IMG/VR virus record: IMGVR_UViG_3300027851_000108
Location: 1 to 27,803 of that record
Source of the DNA: a virus
Strand: one strand, 5' to 3'
Length of the DNA stretch: 27,803 bases
Part shown: positions 3,426 to 24,442 of the stretch, piece after piece
Numbering within the stretch: position 1 is the stretch's first letter
Layout of the letters: the number at the start of each line of letters is the position of its first letter
Made by a program: the position numbers and the translations under genes
The notes under the pieces: model-generated
Seen by the model: only the letters and a program-made list of their open reading frames with translations
Databases searched by the model: none
What the model was told of the DNA's origin: nothing

Positions 3426-5072
3426 CTAGATGGCGAAGAATGTTGGCGACGTCTTGGTGATCGGCCAGAACGCCATCACGACAGCGTCAGCCATGTTCGG
3501 GCTTCGCGTGCCGGGCGGCGACTTGTCAACAGCCAGCTTCAGCGCGCCAGTCGTCTTGCTCACAGTAGCCTGACCAAGCTCTTTTCGCAACTGTTGCAGC
3601 GCGGGCAGGGTGGACGGCAGGGAAATCAGGTCATCCGGGTTGTATGCGATGCCTTCCTTGGTCGCACGATAGGTCCGTTCAAACCGAAGCCGCAACTGCC
3701 ACCATGCCTGCGCCTTGAGGTTGGCGAAGTAATCCTTGTTGATCGGGGTGTCCCGGTCATGCGGCACGATATGCGCGTCAGGGGCAAGCACGCCAGCACC
3801 GGCAGACCATGGCACAAAACTGATGGCGCGCGGCAACTCCCCGGCGGCGTCCAGGCGGTTTGCCTCTGACTTGACGCCAGCACCGACGCCCACGCTGTCA
3901 TATTGCAGCGCCACAGGGCCGAGGCTTGCGCAAGCCTTCACGGCCCGGCGTGTTGTCTCCCCGGTGTCACCTTCCGCCCAAGCCTCAATGCCTGTCAGCA
4001 TCGGCCCCTTGCGGATTGCCAAGGCGTTCTTGTCGCCGCCCTCGTCTGCCACGTCCAAGGCGGCGATGACGGCGCCTGTCGGTTCAAAGCCAAGCTTGAC
4101 ATGGGCATCGACTGCGGCAGCGATCCATTCCGCCGGGATGATGACGCCATCGACCGATGCGGCGTAATTGCGCTCCACCTCCTGCGCAAAGACGTGCAAC
4201 AGCCCTTCCGCCTCAGCCTTGGCCTTCCGCGCCACATACCATTCGTCATCCTTGGCGGGATGGTCCGACCAATCCATGACAAAGACATTGGTGCGACCTT
4301 TGATCGCTGGCCCGTCCTGCCATTCGACACCACCTTCCCGGCGGCGGTGGAAGACGTTGCCCAAGCCGTTCACGCTGGATATGTCGATCTGGACGCGAGT
4401 GTTATCGGCCAGAGCGGCCTCGATCTTTTCGGGCCGTTCGTAGTGCGCGCTTTCGTCCTTGAAGTAGATCAGCTTCCGCCCGCCGCGTCCGATGTTGTCG
4501 CCCGCCTCGCCCGTGATCGTGCTGCCATTCTCGGGGTTCACAATGCGCATATAAGCCATGTGGTCTTGATCGTTGAAACCGCGCGGCCAGAATTCGCGTG
4601 GCATCCGGCGGATGAGAACGCGCATTTTCTCAAAGATGCTGTCAGGGTCGCCCAGCTTGTCCACCAGCTGCTCCTTGCGGCTTCCCCAGCCCACGGCAGC
4701 GCCAGGATAGAACCGCCATAGCCATACCGATACGGCGCAGCATACCCATGTCGCCCCCATGTCGCGGGCTTTCTCGACAAGGCCGTTTTCCTCGCCGTCG
4801 ATCATCGCCATGAGGAACGCGACGAATTCGGCCTGACGCTCGAACATGATGAACGGCATGTATGCCGGGACGCCACGGCCCGCGTTGCGCGGATCATAGG
4901 TGTCTAGCCAGTGAGTGATGAATTCGACGGGCCGGGTCCGGTAGTATTCCAGCGCACCGAACAGCTTCACCGGGTCTTTGCGCATGGCTAAAAGCTGCTG
5001 CTGGCGCCACGCCCACACGGAGACGTAATCAGGCGGCCAGTCAGCCCTTGTCAGCGGCGAGGGTGGCTGCAT
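3426..5072 (-). CDS. terL: Terminase large subunit (packaging ATPase and nuclease)
   Basis: Motor that pumps DNA into the prohead and cuts it. The 548-aa protein has two domains. The ATPase half shows a Walker A variant EKARDMGATW (residues 100-109) and a Walker B LIYFKDE (201-207) with its catalytic Glu. The nuclease half has an RNase H-like fold with candidate metal-binding acids D340 (ALDVADEGGD), D392 (LQYDSVGVGAG) and D529 (NMADAVVMAFW). ATG 5072 overlaps the small-subunit gene by 32 bp and has AGAGG upstream. The next gene is the portal. The type of packaging (cos or headful) cannot be read from this window. Confidence 0.95.
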   Translation of the reverse strand: MQPPSPLTRADWPPDYVSVWAWRQQQLLAMRKDPVKLFGALEYYRTRPVEFITHWLDTYDPRNAGRGVPAYMPFIMFERQAEFVAFLMAMIDGEENGLVEKARDMGATWVCCAVSVWLWRFYPGAAVGWGSRKEQLVDKLGDPDSIFEKMRVLIRRMPREFWPRGFNDQDHMAYMRIVNPENGSTITGEAGDNIGRGGRKLIYFKDESAHYERPEKIEAALADNTRVQIDISSVNGLGNVFHRRREGGVEWQDGPAIKGRTNVFVMDWSDHPAKDDEWYVARKAKAEAEGLLHVFAQEVERNYAASVDGVIIPAEWIAAAVDAHVKLGFEPTGAVIAALDVADEGGDKNALAIRKGPMLTGIEAWAEGDTGETTRRAVKACASLGPVALQYDSVGVGAGVKSEANRLDAAGELPRAISFVPWSAGAGVLAPDAHIVPHDRDTPINKDYFANLKAQAWWQLRLRFERTYRATKEGIAYNPDDLISLPSTLPALQQLRKELGQATVSKTTGALKLAVDKSPPGTRSPNMADAVVMAFWPITKTSPTFFAI

Positions 5073-5523
5073 ATGCCTCTGCGGCCTCCTGCGGCGTCAT
5101 GGTGTCGCTGATCGTGCGGATCGGCCCGCCATCGGGGCCGGAGAGTTCCAGCGCGGCGCGGTCGCGCCACTCGGCAGGGCGGCGGTTCTTGAGCCAGAAA
5201 ATAGCCGCAGTGGTGTCCGGTGCGATCTTTTCGACATACGGCGCATAGACCGGCTCAGTGGCGCCAGCTGGCATGAAGATTTTCACCGCCTCTTGCTCAT
5301 ACCCAACGGCGCGATGATACAGCGCCCGAACAACGCGCTCGTCGGCCTCATCCTTGCCGATGTTTAGGGCCTGACAAAACTCAGGATGGGTGTTCTTCCA
5401 TCGGTAGATCGTCCGCACATCCACATCGAAGAATTCGGCAATCTCTGCATCGGTCGCCCCCAACTTGGCAAGCATACGGGCGCCATTCACATACGCCTCC
5501 CTATACTGGCTTGGACGCCCCAC
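5041..5523 (-). CDS. terS: Terminase small subunit
   Basis: DNA-recognition part of the packaging machine. The product is about 160 aa and starts VGRPSQYREAY. Residues ~20-45 form a helix-turn-helix of the type seen in small terminases (TDAEIAEFFDVDVRTIYRWK), followed by HPEFCQAL and a helical oligomerisation region. The later segment PDTTAAIFWLKNRRPAEWRDR is common in this family. I chose the GTG at 5523 because GGGAAGG stands 7 bases upstream and the reading frame before it (into 5787) crosses a terminator hairpin and another gene. The TTG at 5541 is an alternative. It overlaps terL by 32 bp. Confidence 0.87.
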   Translation of the reverse strand: MGRPSQYREAYVNGARMLAKLGATDAEIAEFFDVDVRTIYRWKNTHPEFCQALNIGKDEADERVVRALYHRAVGYEQEAVKIFMPAGATEPVYAPYVEKIAPDTTAAIFWLKNRRPAEWRDRAALELSGPDGGPIRTISDTMTPQEAAEAYAATLAADKG

Positions 5524-5540
5524 GGTCGTGCCTTCCCTCA

Positions 5541-5569
5541 AATGCAAAACAGCCCCGATTATGGGGCTG
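5541..5569 (-). terminator. Hairpin with T-tract just before terS (terminator or attenuator)
   Basis: On the minus strand CAGCCCC and GGGGCTG form a perfect 7-bp stem with a 6-base loop (ATAATC), followed directly by TTTTGCATTT. The TAA stop codon of the 53-aa ORF lies in the loop. The hairpin ends about 26 bases before the terS start, so it would end or attenuate transcription entering the head operon. Confidence 0.65.
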
Positions 5570-5720
5570 CTGTGTTGGTTTGTCCAGCCTGCAACATCTC
5601 CGCGATGGCGCGCTTGATTTCGTCCTTGCGATCCTCTGGCACCCATACCGAGATCCTGGTGTAACCGGCGGCGTGCTTGCGGGCGTCGTGATCGGCGCGG
5701 CGTTGGGATGAGGTGGTCAT
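5559..5720 (-). CDS. Small basic protein, possibly ribbon-helix-helix
   Basis: A 53-aa product, MTTSSQRRADHDARKHAAG..., with a central stretch YTRISVWVPEDRKDEIKRAI that looks like the strand and first helix of a ribbon-helix-helix DNA-binding fold (alternating hydrophobic strand, then a Pro/Glu turn and helix). The ATG overlaps the stop of the upstream 62-aa gene (ATGA), so the two are probably translated together. Its stop codon lies in the loop of the hairpin at 5541-5569, which may link its translation to read-through into the terminase genes. The family is not established. Confidence 0.65.
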   Translation of the reverse strand: MTTSSQRRADHDARKHAAGYTRISVWVPEDRKDEIKRAIAEMLQAGQTNTAAP

Positions 5721-5905
5721 TCTTCATTGAACCTGGCGGCGGCAGAGCGGGCCTCTGCGAAGCTACCTTCGGCCCAGATCGAGCCATTTACGGTGTAGGC
5801 CCAGACACCGCGACCGCGATTGACAATGGCCTCGCCGCTTTCGAGGATGGCGTTTGCGACTTTGGCGTTCGGTGCGGTGCGGATTTTCTCTGCGACGCTG
5901 GTCAT
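5717..5905 (-). CDS. Conserved-looking small protein, unknown function
   Basis: A 62-aa product starting MTSVAEKIRTAPNAKVANAI. The second half (VNRGRGVWAYTVNGSIWAEGSFAEARSAAARF) resembles a small alpha/beta domain: two strands and a helix. The start at 5905 is chosen for the GGAGAG ribosome site 7-8 bases upstream; an in-frame ATG at 5956 lacks one. It resembles the C-terminal part of the next upstream protein (GHWAVYFDSNATRGSARKFPTIQSALAFMA) in pattern: aromatic strand, then a Phe-x-x-Ala helix. The two may be paralogues. No known function. Confidence 0.7.
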   Translation of the reverse strand: MTSVAEKIRTAPNAKVANAILESGEAIVNRGRGVWAYTVNGSIWAEGSFAEARSAAARFNEE

Positions 5906-5973
5906 TTCAGTCTCTCCATGCTGATGTTTCTGGCACTCGGGATGCGCGCCCCGCAAGGCGCGTCACCGGAGGG

Positions 5974-6186
5974 TCAGTGGGGCAATCCTTTTTTTGCGCG
6001 CCGCTCCGCCATGAACGCCAGCGCTGATTGGATTGTCGGAAATTTGCGTGCGCTTCCACGCGTTGCGTTGCTATCGAAGTAAACCGCCCAGTGTCCTTGA
6101 GGCTTTTTTACGACAAGTCCGCGATACGCACCGGATTTGGCGGTTACATCAAATGCTTCAATTCCCGCGCCGTCCAGCATCCACAT
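5974..6186 (-). CDS. Small protein, first firm gene of the late operon; unknown function
   Basis: A 70-aa product MWMLDGAGIEAFDVTAKSGA..., with strand-rich middle (YRGLVVKKPQGHWAVYFDS) and a C-terminal helix. I prefer ATG 6186 because GGAGA lies 8 bases upstream; the upstream ATG at 6231 has a poor site and overlaps the candidate -10 box. It lies directly downstream of the candidate promoter at 6234-6262. No family is recognised. Confidence 0.65.
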   Translation of the reverse strand: MWMLDGAGIEAFDVTAKSGAYRGLVVKKPQGHWAVYFDSNATRGSARKFPTIQSALAFMAERRAKKGLPH

Positions 6187-6329
6187 CTCATTCTCTCCGA
6201 TCTGTGAGGCGTCAACCTCGTTTCCATGCACTCTTTATCCCACATGTTCGCGCGAACTGCAATATGGAAAATGCACCTGTCCTGAAAATAATCGCCACCT
6301 CCACAGATCGCACAGAAGGCACCATACAC
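6144..6329 (-). CDS. Doubtful cysteine-containing small ORF
   Basis: A possible 61-aa product from GTG at 6329, with a CAIC pair near the N-terminus and a Cys-rich end (RMRCGCW). It begins two bases after the stop of another small ORF but has no clear ribosome site. It overlaps the 70-aa gene by 43 bp in another frame and runs through the candidate promoter. It may be a remnant of a zinc-finger gene, or not be coding. Confidence 0.22.
   Translation of the reverse strand: MYGAFCAICGGGDYFQDRCIFHIAVRANMWDKECMETRLTPHRSERMRCGCWTARELKHLM
6234..6262 (-). promoter_or_regulatory. Candidate late promoter with a palindromic operator in the spacer
   Basis: On the minus strand TTGCAG (6262-6257) and GATAAA (6239-6234) are 17 bases apart. 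Between them lies GTTCGCGCGAAC (6246-6257), a perfect 12-bp palindrome that also touches the -35 box. Predicted start of transcription is near 6227, giving a ~40-base leader to the gene at 6186. It is correctly placed to drive terminase and head genes. The hexamers are imperfect, so this is inferred. Confidence 0.4.
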
Positions 6330-6567
6330 GGCTAAGTCATGTTTCGGCGGTCTGGTATCATCCGCGCCGGAGATCGCCGTGTGGGTGGCGCTGCGTTGCC
6401 TCTGCGTTGAAATCCAGCCTTCCGCCCTTCGCGCCTCATGAAATCCGCTTGGCCTCGACGCGTTGACCCGGTGACGGGCAGGGTGGCTATGTTCCGGCTG
6501 TGCTGGATGGCCGGTGAGAGATTGAGGCGGCGGTGTGGGGTGATGATGGCATGGGGCGGGGTGGCGT
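6330..6567. other. Gap between primase and late operon, no firm gene
   Basis: Together with 6187-6329 this is the longest stretch without a firm gene. The minus strand has a 35-aa Arg-rich ORF at 6332-6439 (MRREGRKAGFQ...) with a weak ribosome site; the plus strand has a 65-aa ORF at 6438-6635 that runs into the primase gene antisense. An 8-bp repeat CTGCGTTG occurs twice, 11 bases apart (6391-6398, 6402-6409). No terminator is seen after the primase gene. Confidence 0.4.
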
Positions 6568-7506
6568 TCAAGCTATTCGCTTCATCAGCACATCGTTCCA
6601 ATCTTGGCCGATCAGCGGCGGAATGTGGACGCTAACCGCTACACCCTTAACGGCCAACTTGTGGGCCAAAGCATAGGCTGCGGATTGTCCGCCAAACTTT
6701 CGGTCGTTGTCCCCAAAGATTGCCACTTCGTCGCACCCATGCGGCGGCAGCCAGCGCTTAAGCATCGCAGAGTTGATCGCAGCCCATACCGGCATGTCAT
6801 ACAGGGCGGAGGCGCTAAGCGCGGTCTCTATGCCCTCAGCAATGCCAATGGCGCCCGATCCGGTCCAGTCAGACAGCATTACGCACGCCCCATCCGGCAG
6901 ATCGCCTGGCATCAATTTGCGTGGGGCAGCCATATCAGCCTTTCCTGACCCGTCTGGCCGCAGGAAGGTCCGGTGCATTGATGACAGCTTTGGCTCACCA
7001 TGCACCCCGATCAGCGCGACCATGCACGGCCTTACACCGCCTTCACCGTCCGCGATAGCGCGGCCATAGCGCAGCGCCTTTGGGTAGATCAACCCACCTA
7101 CGCCACGGGTTTCAAGATACCGATGCGCCATGTCCCCCGGAGCGATTGGCGCAGTCGATTGCCAGACCTTCACCAGTGCAGCGCGGCGATCTGCTTCTGT
7201 CATGTCTCGCCTTGGCTGCGGCGTGTCTGGCGTCAGGTTGCCAACCATGGCGTCAATCTCCGGCGCTACAGAACGGAAGTCTCGCCCTGTCACGCGCTCG
7301 ATCAGGTGAAAGCCGTCTCCGCTGCCGCAGGTGCAGATATAGCTGCCTGACCCGTCCTTGTCATCCCATCGGAACCCATCCGGCTTTGCGCAGATCGGGC
7401 ACAGGCCATGCCGATTGCGCAGAACATTAGCCTCGAACCCAAACTCCAGAAGGATGCCGCGCCACTTGCCCTTTGCAGCTTCGCGTGTGCTCTTGTGATA
7501 GCTCAT
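6568..7506 (-). CDS. Toprim-domain DNA primase (zinc-finger N-terminus)
   Basis: Probably makes RNA primers for phage replication. The 312-aa protein has an N-terminal zinc-binding module with C36-x2-C39 and C58-x-C60 (the primase zinc ribbon), a linker helical region, and a Toprim fold with its two acidic motifs: EGIETALS (E224/E227) and IFGDND (D266/D268), which bind catalytic metal ions. The end reads QDWNDVLM, as in P4 alpha-like and related phage primases. It lacks a helicase domain of its own; the SF2 helicase is the preceding gene, with an ATGA overlap (7503-7506). The two probably act together at the fork. Confidence 0.88.
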   Translation of the reverse strand: MSYHKSTREAAKGKWRGILLEFGFEANVLRNRHGLCPICAKPDGFRWDDKDGSGSYICTCGSGDGFHLIERVTGRDFRSVAPEIDAMVGNLTPDTPQPRRDMTEADRRAALVKVWQSTAPIAPGDMAHRYLETRGVGGLIYPKALRYGRAIADGEGGVRPCMVALIGVHGEPKLSSMHRTFLRPDGSGKADMAAPRKLMPGDLPDGACVMLSDWTGSGAIGIAEGIETALSASALYDMPVWAAINSAMLKRWLPPHGCDEVAIFGDNDRKFGGQSAAYALAHKLAVKGVAVSVHIPPLIGQDWNDVLMKRIA

Positions 7507-8987
7507 TTCGTCTCGGCCTGCTTCTTCTTGGCATATGCGATGCGCCGTGATTTTTCATAATTCCAGAAGTCTTGATCGGGGAACAGCACCTCGTCACGCA
7601 ACCCGCGCGGCCATACGCCGAATTTTGACTTGTATAGGCCCAGCGCCAGCTTACCGCCGCGCTTACGATCAGCATCTAGCCAGCGCGCCATTGACCAGAA
7701 GCGCTGCTTATCCGCCATGGTTGGCACCTTGACCTTGCCAATAGCTACCAGTTCCCCTTCGCCTTCCTCGATGCGCGGCGGCTTTTTTTCGTGCCCGCAG
7801 TATGGGCACACCAGCCCGCTATGCAGCTTCCCGCAATTCGCGCACTCCTTGGGAAGCTTCTCATTCACAATGCGCTTTTGCTTCTCAGCCGGTGGCGTGG
7901 CGTCCAGCGTGTCATGGTGAATATCCGTCACCAGCCCGAGGCGCAGCGAGTTCCCGGCATGGTCCAGGATGATCAGATCCTCAGTCCCCGGATTGACCCG
8001 CAGACCGCGCCCGATCTTCTGGACATGCAGCATTTCCGACATGGTGGGGGCTGCATCGATCACACATGACACAGGCCAGTCGACGCCCGTCGTTAGCGTC
8101 CGCACCGAACAGGCCACCTTGACCTCACCAGATCGAAACTGGCGCTCGATCATGCGCCGCTCCACCATGTCGGTGTAAGCGTCCACATAGGCCGCATTGA
8201 TGCCTGCCGCGATGAACTCCTGCTGCACCTGCCTAGCGTGTGCACAGGACGCGCAGAAAGCCAGTGTTGGCCTATTCTCGCCCCGTGCCAGCCATGTCTG
8301 CACAATCGACGCGACGATCTTCGCCTCTCCCATGACAGCCTCTAGCGCGCTTTCGACGTATTCCCCCGCCGTGACCTTCACCCCGCGCAGGTCCGGCACG
8401 TCAGGCGCGTATGCCTCAAACCGCGACAGGTATCCGCCTTCGATCAGTTCCCCGATGGTGCATGGGATGACCAGATCCTGCCACCGCAGCCCCATACCTT
8501 TCGCCCATGGCGTTGCCGATAGCCCGACGAAAAACACGTCCGGCCTGTCATCCATCAGCTTCTCAACCGCTGCGCTGCGTATGTGGCATTCATCAACGAT
8601 CACCAGAGCCGCAGCCGGGATTTCTCGCCGTGCCAAGGTTTGGACGGATGCAATCTGCAATGGTGCGCTCGGGTCCGTTCTGGGGTGGCTAGCCTGCATG
8701 ACGCCGATACCGTCCAGCCCTTCCGCCTCAAACGCCCGCACCGTCTGATCGATCAGGCTGATCGCTGGCGCCGTGAATATCACCCGGTTTCCTTTGGCAC
8801 GGGCACCTTCGATGATGTTCGCCGCAACCAGTGTCTTGCCGAAACCTGTCGGGCCTTGGATCACCACGCGGCGGTTTCCCCGTGCCAAGGATTGGCGCAG
8901 CATGGCAATCGCGTTCACCTGATGCGGGCGAAGCTCCTTCTTGGCCGGGCTTTTGAACATGTCATTCATCGCGGCCACCGCAGTCAT
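7503..8987 (-). CDS. DEAD/DEAH-type superfamily 2 helicase
   Basis: ATP-dependent DNA (or RNA) unwinding enzyme. The 494-aa protein has a Q-like RPHQ (20-23), Walker A GPTGFGKT (45-52), DECH box (132-135), SAT (157-159), a motif IV region TLAFCASCAHA and motif VI QKIGRGLR (323-330). A C-terminal zinc ribbon follows: C382-x2-C385 and C394-x2-C397. These features match phage SF2 helicases of the UvsW/RadD-like type. The gene overlaps the HTH initiator by 26 bp upstream and the Toprim primase by 4 bp downstream, so a replication role (opening or restarting forks) is most likely. Confidence 0.9.
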   Translation of the reverse strand: MTAVAAMNDMFKSPAKKELRPHQVNAIAMLRQSLARGNRRVVIQGPTGFGKTLVAANIIEGARAKGNRVIFTAPAISLIDQTVRAFEAEGLDGIGVMQASHPRTDPSAPLQIASVQTLARREIPAAALVIVDECHIRSAAVEKLMDDRPDVFFVGLSATPWAKGMGLRWQDLVIPCTIGELIEGGYLSRFEAYAPDVPDLRGVKVTAGEYVESALEAVMGEAKIVASIVQTWLARGENRPTLAFCASCAHARQVQQEFIAAGINAAYVDAYTDMVERRMIERQFRSGEVKVACSVRTLTTGVDWPVSCVIDAAPTMSEMLHVQKIGRGLRVNPGTEDLIILDHAGNSLRLGLVTDIHHDTLDATPPAEKQKRIVNEKLPKECANCGKLHSGLVCPYCGHEKKPPRIEEGEGELVAIGKVKVPTMADKQRFWSMARWLDADRKRGGKLALGLYKSKFGVWPRGLRDEVLFPDQDFWNYEKSRRIAYAKKKQAETK

Positions 8988-9387
8988 TTTCGATCCACTG
9001 GCACGGGTCTTCTATGCTCATCGCAATGTCGTGATAGGCGCTTGGGGTATATCCCTGATTAGGGGGCATATTGTGCCCCATACGAGCGGCATATTGTGCC
9101 CCACCCTTGATGCGGTATCGGCTGTTCAAATTGCGCTTGCCTCGGCCTGTTCGCTGCGTCCTCTGGACAGTGACAATCAGGTTGATTTTCTCCAATTCCC
9201 GAAGCGCCATGCGCACCGCGCGCTCCGACAATTTCGACTTTGCGACGATCCTACCGATGGATGGATCACATCGCCCAGTCTCTTGGTTGTGGTGATCCGC
9301 CAAGACCATAAGCACGACCTTTGCAGGGATGCCCATCTCATTGTTGGCAATGTGAAGCATCGCCGCCCTCATTGCGGTGAAGCTCAT
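8962..9387 (-). CDS. Helix-turn-helix replication initiator (lambda O / HTH_36-like)
   Basis: Probable origin-binding protein, 141 aa, beginning MSFTAMRAAML. The N-terminal ~75 residues form a winged helix of the replication-initiator type: PAKVVLMVLADHHNQETGRCDPS, then IGRIVAKSKLSERAVRMALRELEK and a wing rich in basic residues (RTQRTGRGKRNLNSRYRI). The C-terminal part is loose and polar. ATG 9387 overlaps a 24-aa leader ORF (ATGA); ATG 9396 is an alternative. Two identical 16-bp repeats (9065-9080, 9088-9103) lie within the C-terminal coding part in different frames, as iterons do inside lambda O. The gene precedes the helicase and primase. Confidence 0.78.
   Translation of the reverse strand: MSFTAMRAAMLHIANNEMGIPAKVVLMVLADHHNQETGRCDPSIGRIVAKSKLSERAVRMALRELEKINLIVTVQRTQRTGRGKRNLNSRYRIKGGAQYAARMGHNMPPNQGYTPSAYHDIAMSIEDPCQWIENDCGGRDE
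9065..9080. repeat. Iteron-like repeat, copy 1 (candidate origin)
   Basis: GGCATATTGTGCCCCA. With the preceding bases it forms an inverted repeat, GGGGCA-TATTG-TGCCCC. The identical second copy lies 23 bp to the right. The repeats are inside the initiator gene. Confidence 0.6.
9088..9103. repeat. Iteron-like repeat, copy 2 (candidate origin)
   Basis: Perfect second copy of the 16-bp sequence at 9065-9080, same orientation, 23-bp period. The period is not a multiple of three, so the two copies are read in different frames and encode different peptides (GAQYA and GHNMP). That argues for a DNA-level function. Confidence 0.6.
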
Positions 9388-9458
9388 TCGTCGCACCCCA
9401 TCGCAAGACGTGTGTTGACGATTTCGGCGCTATCGCCGATATTGTGGCTTGAAGCCAT
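9384..9458 (-). CDS. 24-aa leader ORF before the replication initiator
   Basis: Short product MASSHNIGDSAEIVNTRLAM..., too short for most gene finders. It has a good ribosome site (AAAGGGG, 7-8 bases before ATG) and its stop overlaps the initiator start as ATGA. The initiator itself has no strong site of its own, so this ORF may mainly deliver ribosomes to it by coupling. Confidence 0.5.
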   Translation of the reverse strand: MASSHNIGDSAEIVNTRLAMGCDE

Positions 9459-23646: not shown

Positions 23647-23859
23647 ATGGGCGACATCGGATCATCATCCTGCAATGTCTGCTTTGGCCGAAAGCGTATA
23701 ATGGTCGGCATGTCGTTCCCACCCAAACGAACGATTGCCGTGAAATACGAATACGATCCATGCCCAAATTGCCAGCCGCCTCCTCATTCATTTTACGCAA
23801 TACGCAGGGCACAACAAATTCTCAAGGCGCAGAAGGAACCCACCCATGACCAACCTTGA
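23647..23859 (+). CDS. Small zinc-finger-like protein
   Basis: A 70-aa product with CNVC near residue 9 and CPNC near residue 39, the two knuckles of a zinc ribbon, between them basic residues (FGRKRIMVGM, PPKRTIAVKY). Starts 4 bases after the previous stop, with GGGAGGGTGAGGGG before ATG. Overlaps the next gene by 14 bp. Role unknown. Confidence 0.68.
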   Translation: MGDIGSSSCNVCFGRKRIMVGMSFPPKRTIAVKYEYDPCPNCQPPPHSFYAIRRAQQILKAQKEPTHDQP

Positions 23860-24442
23860 ACCCAAGCACATCGACGCGCTGGTGGAGCGGCAGCGCCAGA
23901 TTGCCATCCTGCATCGCGGCATTATCGAGAGCCACAAGGATACCATCCGAGGACCCTTATCCTTGAGCGTGGCTGAACACCGCGAGCTTATTGCCGACGC
24001 TTCAAGGGCCGCCGACACCATCACCGCCCTGCGCGCTGAAAATGACAGGCTGTCAAACCTCTGGCAGATCGAACACGACCATGCCACCGCCCTGCGCGCC
24101 CAGATCGACAGAGAGCGGGCTGCGACGATTGAGGCGGCGGGAAGGGTGGCTTGGCCGCATCCATGGCAGCCGGACCACCTGTTGGCATCCGCAAGCTACG
24201 TGCTGTTCTGCGCTGCCAACCATATCCGCGCCCTGCACACCGACGCCACCCGCGCTGCCATGGATGCCATCTGGCGGGAGGGATATGAGGCGGGGGCGGT
24301 GGTGGAACGGGCAAAATCGGCTGATTTGGCGAACGCGGCGCGCGATCTGGCGGATTGCTGCCAGCTTGGCGAAGATGCGGATTGGGAGGAAGGCGAAGAT
24401 CCGCTATCGGAGTTGCGCGCCGTTCTTGCCGCCCGATCCTGA
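23846..24442 (+). CDS. Coiled-coil accessory protein, last gene of the operon
   Basis: A 198-aa product. MTNLEPKHIDALVERQRQIAIL..., then a coiled coil (ASRAADTITALRAENDRLSNLWQIEHDHATALRAQIDRERAATIEAAG), helical segment ATRAAMDAIWREGYEAGAVVERAK, and an acidic end. This general build is common in phage accessory genes. The terminator at 24469 follows. Function unknown. Confidence 0.72.
   Translation: MTNLEPKHIDALVERQRQIAILHRGIIESHKDTIRGPLSLSVAEHRELIADASRAADTITALRAENDRLSNLWQIEHDHATALRAQIDRERAATIEAAGRVAWPHPWQPDHLLASASYVLFCAANHIRALHTDATRAAMDAIWREGYEAGAVVERAKSADLANAARDLADCCQLGEDADWEEGEDPLSELRAVLAARS

Follow-up and report, generated by a model that had tools for sequence, protein, structure and literature searches.

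Why a phage gene should hold the same 16 bp twice within its coding sequence is the question raised by the window analysed here, a 27,803-nucleotide stretch of viral DNA in which the 16-mer GGCATATTGTGCCCCA occurs in two identical copies with a period of exactly 23 bp (Table 1). An origin built of iterons and embedded in an initiator gene is expected to combine direct repeats at a spacing of about two helical turns within the initiator coding sequence, a DNA-binding replication-initiation protein encoded by that very gene, and constraint on the repeats as DNA across relatives. On the comparative sequence evidence, we consider that the two copies are very probably iterons bound by the winged-helix protein of their own gene, and together the core of the phage replication origin.

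Table 1. Features of the candidate origin region (positions in the window) and the paired sites of the close relatives.
Feature	Position	Strand	Remarks
Toprim primase with zinc ribbon	6568..7506	-	overlaps the helicase gene
SF2 helicase (ResIII/DEAD, RadD-like)	7503..8987	-	overlaps the initiator gene
Winged-helix (HTH_36) replication-initiation protein	8962..9396	-	144 aa, GTG start; putative iterons across codons 98-111
Conserved C-terminal peptide PSAYHDIAMSIE (clade form PSAFDDLAMxIE)	9010..9045	-	alignment of six clade members
Mildly AT-richer stretch TAATCAGGGATATA	9025..9064	-	just past the second putative iteron in gene direction; candidate unwinding region
Putative iteron, copy 1	9065..9080	+	inside the 17-bp hyphenated palindrome GGGGCATATTGTGCCCC = GGGGCA-TATTG-TGCCCC, 9063-9079
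Putative iteron, copy 2	9088..9103	+	same 16-mer; inner arms GGCA...TGCC retained, 9088-9100
Folded winged-helix domain, residues 6-96	9109..9381	-	stops just short of the putative iterons; AlphaFold model
Site pair, window and L001			TGGGGCACAATATGCC twice
Site pair, L087			GGGGGTCCAATATGCC twice
Site pair, L106			TGGGGCAGAATTTGCC twice
Site pair, L006			TGGGGCAAAATATGCC + TGGGGCAGAATTTGCC
Site pair, L107			TGGTGCAAAATTTGCA + TGGTGCAGGATTTGCA

This pair is the longest exact direct repeat in the window at spacings of 18-30 bp, and in 1000 first-order Markov shuffles the longest such repeat had a mean of 9.5 bp and a maximum of 14 bp, a length of 16 bp being reached in none of them (0/1000). 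An earlier note on this DNA had described a perfect 16-bp repeat with a 23-bp period, an inverted repeat around copy 1, and a location of both copies in the C-terminal coding part of a helix-turn-helix gene in different frames; all these particulars were recovered, and the spacing of the two direct repeats inside the initiator coding sequence comes to about two turns of the helix. No further copy of GGCATATTGTGCCCCA within two mismatches is present in the window, and allowing 3 mismatches adds only a 3-mismatch site at 3760. Its core octamer ATATTGTG has three occurrences only, one in each copy and one at 9439-9446 (+), about 43 bp upstream of the initiator start, which may be an autoregulatory half-site. 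Elsewhere in the window, at 24022-24100, a 15-bp direct repeat CACCGCCCTGCGCGC with 63-bp spacing is located inside the ORF 23846-24442 and, 63 being a multiple of three, may be a peptide repeat.

The same explanation could be considered for the 16-bp pair, as a peptide repeat needed by the protein, or else the pair could be the product of chance or of recent duplication. Since 23 is not a multiple of three, however, the two copies code for different peptides, GAQYA (GGG GCA CAA TAT GCC) and MGHNMP (ATG GGG CAC AAT ATG CC), and shuffling synonymous codons with the window initiator protein held fixed failed to match the repeat score (0/300). Some distant relatives have spacings of 21 or 24 bp, which keep the frame as well, but in the window the copies are out of frame, and this excludes a peptide repeat. 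Chance is opposed by the Markov shuffles and by the retention of the pair, with concerted change, in five relatives, so that explanations of this kind deserve hardly any credence.

The protein encoded by the repeat-bearing gene matches HTH_36 (PF13730, 9.6e-9) as its sole Pfam family, and PHROG families 1032, 391 and 270, which are annotated as replication initiation or O-like. AlphaFold prediction (eleven homologues) gave high pLDDT to about residue 80, with four helices and three to four strands; going by the family matches and the winged-helix model, the product is a putative DNA-binding replication-initiation protein. A fold search of the PDB with the winged-helix model returned generic winged-helix regulators with weak scores, the best being of the MarR/Fur/ArsR type. 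In the iteron-coded stretch, at residues 102-112, pLDDT is below 50, and given the codons that the repeats span, they are located in the part of the gene coding for a probably disordered tail. The protein finishes about 33 residues past the repeats. Whichever gene comes next, the peptide PSAFDDLAMxIE follows the iteron-coded stretch in the window and in its relatives L001, L006, L087, L106 and L107; our guess is that it could be an interaction motif, and hence a candidate contact for helicase or primase. Directly downstream lies the helicase gene, whose nearest NCBIfam model is RadD, below its cut-off. In the L001 helicase (5395-7941), SEMLH is followed by about 356 aa resembling an intein (CLDAQTEIL...TVMGNC), an insert that the window helicase does not have.

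Protein searches of viral contigs and genomes yielded five close homologues, namely L001, L006, L106, L107 and the Thalassobius prophage L087, at 48-61% protein identity to the window. Each of them has a pair of 16-bp sites, spaced by exactly 23 bp and located at the same codon position. The letters of these sites differ among genomes (Table 1) and the two copies change together: within-genome agreement amounts to 92/96 positions vs a mean of 79.7 when copy 1 of one genome was paired with copy 2 of another (P=4/720), and concerted change is still seen with L001 left out (P=2/120). Codon usage points the same way, as residues shared by the window and L001 use the identical codon in 13/14 cases within the block vs 21/62 elsewhere (p=6e-5), the near-perfect block of L001 being partly ascertained by its probable discovery through the iteron-coded peptide MGHNMPPN. 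The remaining pairs show the same direction more weakly (p 0.011 to 0.08). For L006, L087, L106 and L107 the search started from N-terminal motifs (HNQE, TGRCDPS), so that the way in which they were collected does not account for their repeats. Copies that change together across reading frames, along with preserved synonymous codons, indicate that the constraint acts on DNA. The earlier note had claimed conservation of DNA rather than protein and had proposed an alignment of relatives as the first check; this alignment bears the claim out, the 23-bp-spaced sites being kept across the clade while the protein drifts.

Regarding the reach of these searches, a genome-contig scan with the single window protein gave no match, and a scan with the alignment gave one prophage, L087. 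Searching 394 family and 385 class genomes added no more close relatives. When viral contigs were scanned for the paired repeat in its exact form, the L001 contig was the sole hit, because the relatives have changed letters.

Gene order around the homologues bears on what the sites do. In L106 (860-2931) the initiator-iteron cassette has a head-tail adaptor gene on one side and the large terminase gene on the other, and is not beside replication genes, and in L107 the helicase lies upstream of the cassette with none directly downstream; the paired sites persist in both. This can be set against the proposal that the winged-helix protein binds the sites as operators, solely to regulate its own operon of helicase and primase, with no role at an origin. 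Such a proposal can draw on the position of the sites 77-116 bp upstream of the helicase start, on the frequent role of winged-helix proteins as regulators, in line with the best PDB matches, and on the third octamer upstream of the initiator gene. However, the sites lie well within a coding sequence that itself overlaps the helicase gene, a promoter scan of the region gave no minus-strand promoter-like site, and the protein belongs to replication-initiation families, and we therefore regard a purely regulatory function as improbable.

The position of the L106 gene directly before the large terminase also invites comparison with DNA packaging, where pac sites inside small terminase genes are known, and the repeats could then be pac or cos recognition sites within a small-terminase-like gene. 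Yet a separate small terminase is encoded in the window at 5041-5787 (PHROG 309, 9.7e-51), beside the large terminase at 3426-5072, which makes a packaging site unlikely, L107 likewise has a separate small terminase, and the winged-helix protein matches replication families only and no small-terminase family. A small terminase with an internal pac site was rejected on these grounds, and the chance that the repeats serve packaging appears very slight.

Spaced repeats at this position extend well beyond the close relatives. We compiled 23 winged-helix genes, comprising 19 located upstream of a related helicase (from a helicase-based search) together with those of the window, L001, L006 and L087, and in 16 of the 23 the best repeat score at 18-30 bp spacing was >=10 vs 1/111 control windows from the same loci. 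A second set was gathered by an N-terminal motif, blind to both helicase and repeats, and comprised 48 genes after removal of near-duplicates. The 200 bp just past the winged-helix domain held a repeat in 33/48 of them vs 28/974 control windows, the spacing being mostly 21-22 bp, and the N-terminal coding windows of the same genes held none (0/48). Although the score threshold was set after the data were seen, the contrast persists at every threshold from 9 to 14. Within a sub-family of 16, a pair of dyads in which the four half-sites all match, or nearly all do, was detected in 12/16 vs 3/261 control windows, and the half-site itself varies by lineage (CACTC, CGCTC, ATCTA, GTCTA, GTCCA, GCTCA). 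Four half-sites changing together is the trace that would be expected of a dimer binding two palindromes. The winged-helix initiator genes of L109 (1830-1950) and L150 (about 270-350 bp into the gene) hold arrays of at least three repeats spaced by 21-22 bp. RepL-type initiators located beside the same helicase type in Vibrio and Pseudoalteromonas phages are without such in-gene repeats. The helicase upstream regions of Fels-1, PS-1, PSTCR3, ST13-OXA48phi12.2 and a Methylobacterium plasmid gave no convincing repeats, and that of ENT39118 reached a repeat score of 11.5.

Less can be drawn from base composition. The stretch just past the second site has an AT content of 0.50 vs 0.39 for its context in the window, the corresponding 40 bp is AT-richer in 6/6 clade members (0.47-0.62 vs 0.35-0.46), and the family mean rises by 9 to 11 points over the first 60 bp. 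A comparable rise occurs at loci in which no iterons were detected, so that the AT content would fit an unwinding region but does not argue for one. GC skew turns near 10 kb, where gene orientation switches too; because the skew follows gene orientation and the 27.8-kb record is a fragment, it is not usable as independent evidence of an origin. Against the origin reading one can count that there are two sites only, that the modest AT rise is not specific to iteron loci, and that the L106 cassette stands beside the large terminase, away from a helicase.

Full-text literature searches yielded precedents in lambda, Stx phages and SPP1, and no paper on this group of initiators with SF2 helicases. 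The lambda iterons are hyphenated inverted repeats of 18 bp, each of which binds two O proteins, and a high-AT region follows them (PMC6022878); the O proteins of Stx phages provide the same kind of precedent (PMC7466680). The earlier note had compared this locus to lambda, which keeps its iterons inside gene O, and the parallel holds in detail: as a positive control, our scan recovered the gene O iterons (p <1/200), which by annotation are 20, 24 and 23 bp apart and sit just after the N-terminal domain, so that in both phages direct repeats 20-24 bp apart lie within the initiator gene past the N-terminal DNA-binding domain. In both, moreover, a disordered part appears to be coded between folded regions, as predicted for the window protein; small in-frame deletions in the AT-rich part of lambda O still yield a functional protein (PMC6022878), in keeping with a tolerant linker. 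The differences are equally clear. Lambda has four iterons rather than two, and the AT-rich region is weak in the window; O belongs to Phage_rep_O (PF04492), whereas the window initiator belongs to HTH_36 without a PF04492 match and lacks a C-terminal domain like that of O; and the lambda partners are P and host DnaB, in contrast to the SF2 helicase and Toprim primase of the window, where no lambda-P-like loader adjoins. Different Pfam families, the missing O-like C-terminal domain and the other partner genes place the window initiator outside the lambda O family.

A second precedent is oriL of SPP1, located within gene 38, where direct repeats are bound by the gene's own product and accompanied by an AT-rich unwinding element (PMC6316719). 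The likeness lies in repeats inside the gene of their own binding protein, with binding in the window being predicted, and the difference in the SPP1 helicase loader gp39 and DnaB-type helicase gp40 (PMC6316719). Nearer in protein family are Pseudanabaena phage Pam5 and Pseudomonas phage PP9W2, in which an HTH_36 winged helix is followed by in-gene palindromic repeats 22-23 bp apart; the scan used for the wider family detected a perfect, palindromic 23-bp repeat GAGGGGTCAGAATGTGACCCCCC in Pam5 and palindromic repeats in the initiator gene of PP9W2. Their proteins differ by being longer, with a C-terminal part, and their repeat sequences are others, and in PP9W2 a DnaB-type helicase gene adjoins. 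Hence the window element would seem to belong with the known iteron origins inside initiator genes, such as lambda O and SPP1 oriL, and its new features would be the minimal initiator and the different partner genes. The proposal of a lambda-like origin in the earlier note is thereby supported by comparison of sequences, in that the initiator families match, the relatives keep the sites, and the lambda parallel stands.

The course of initiation that we infer would start with one face of the DNA being occupied by dimers of the winged-helix protein, bound at the two hyphenated palindromes some two helical turns from each other. The bound dimers may distort or open the adjoining AT-richer stretch, and they would then bring in the SF2 helicase and the Toprim primase, whose genes come next downstream, perhaps through the conserved C-terminal peptide PSAFDDLAM. 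As no helicase-loader or DnaB gene was recognised in the window, this recruitment step is without a characterised model. The location of the iterons in a stretch coding for a disordered tail, where change is tolerated, would let initiator and origin travel as one cassette.

The novel side of such an origin lies in how an SF2 helicase and a Toprim primase would serve it. We tentatively suggest, as a possibility that we rate as rather doubtful, that phages with an SF2 (RadD-like) helicase and Toprim primase possess a distinct, self-contained class of origin, with a minimal winged-helix initiator, palindromic iterons in its own gene, and an SF2 helicase loaded directly via a short C-terminal peptide without a DnaB loader. 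The finding provides a probable replication origin for a phage group without one assigned in the literature searched, and a rule for finding further origins, namely to look for palindromes spaced by 21-24 bp immediately after the part of the initiator gene that codes for the winged-helix domain. It also becomes testable how replication can be started by a Toprim primase together with an SF2 helicase when no DnaB loader is recognised. Given that initiator and binding site form one piece of DNA and vary by lineage, the family offers a ready data set on site choice by winged-helix proteins, and if the distinct-class reading is true, iteron and recognition helix would co-evolve, so that the sequence by itself could reveal both origin and specificity.
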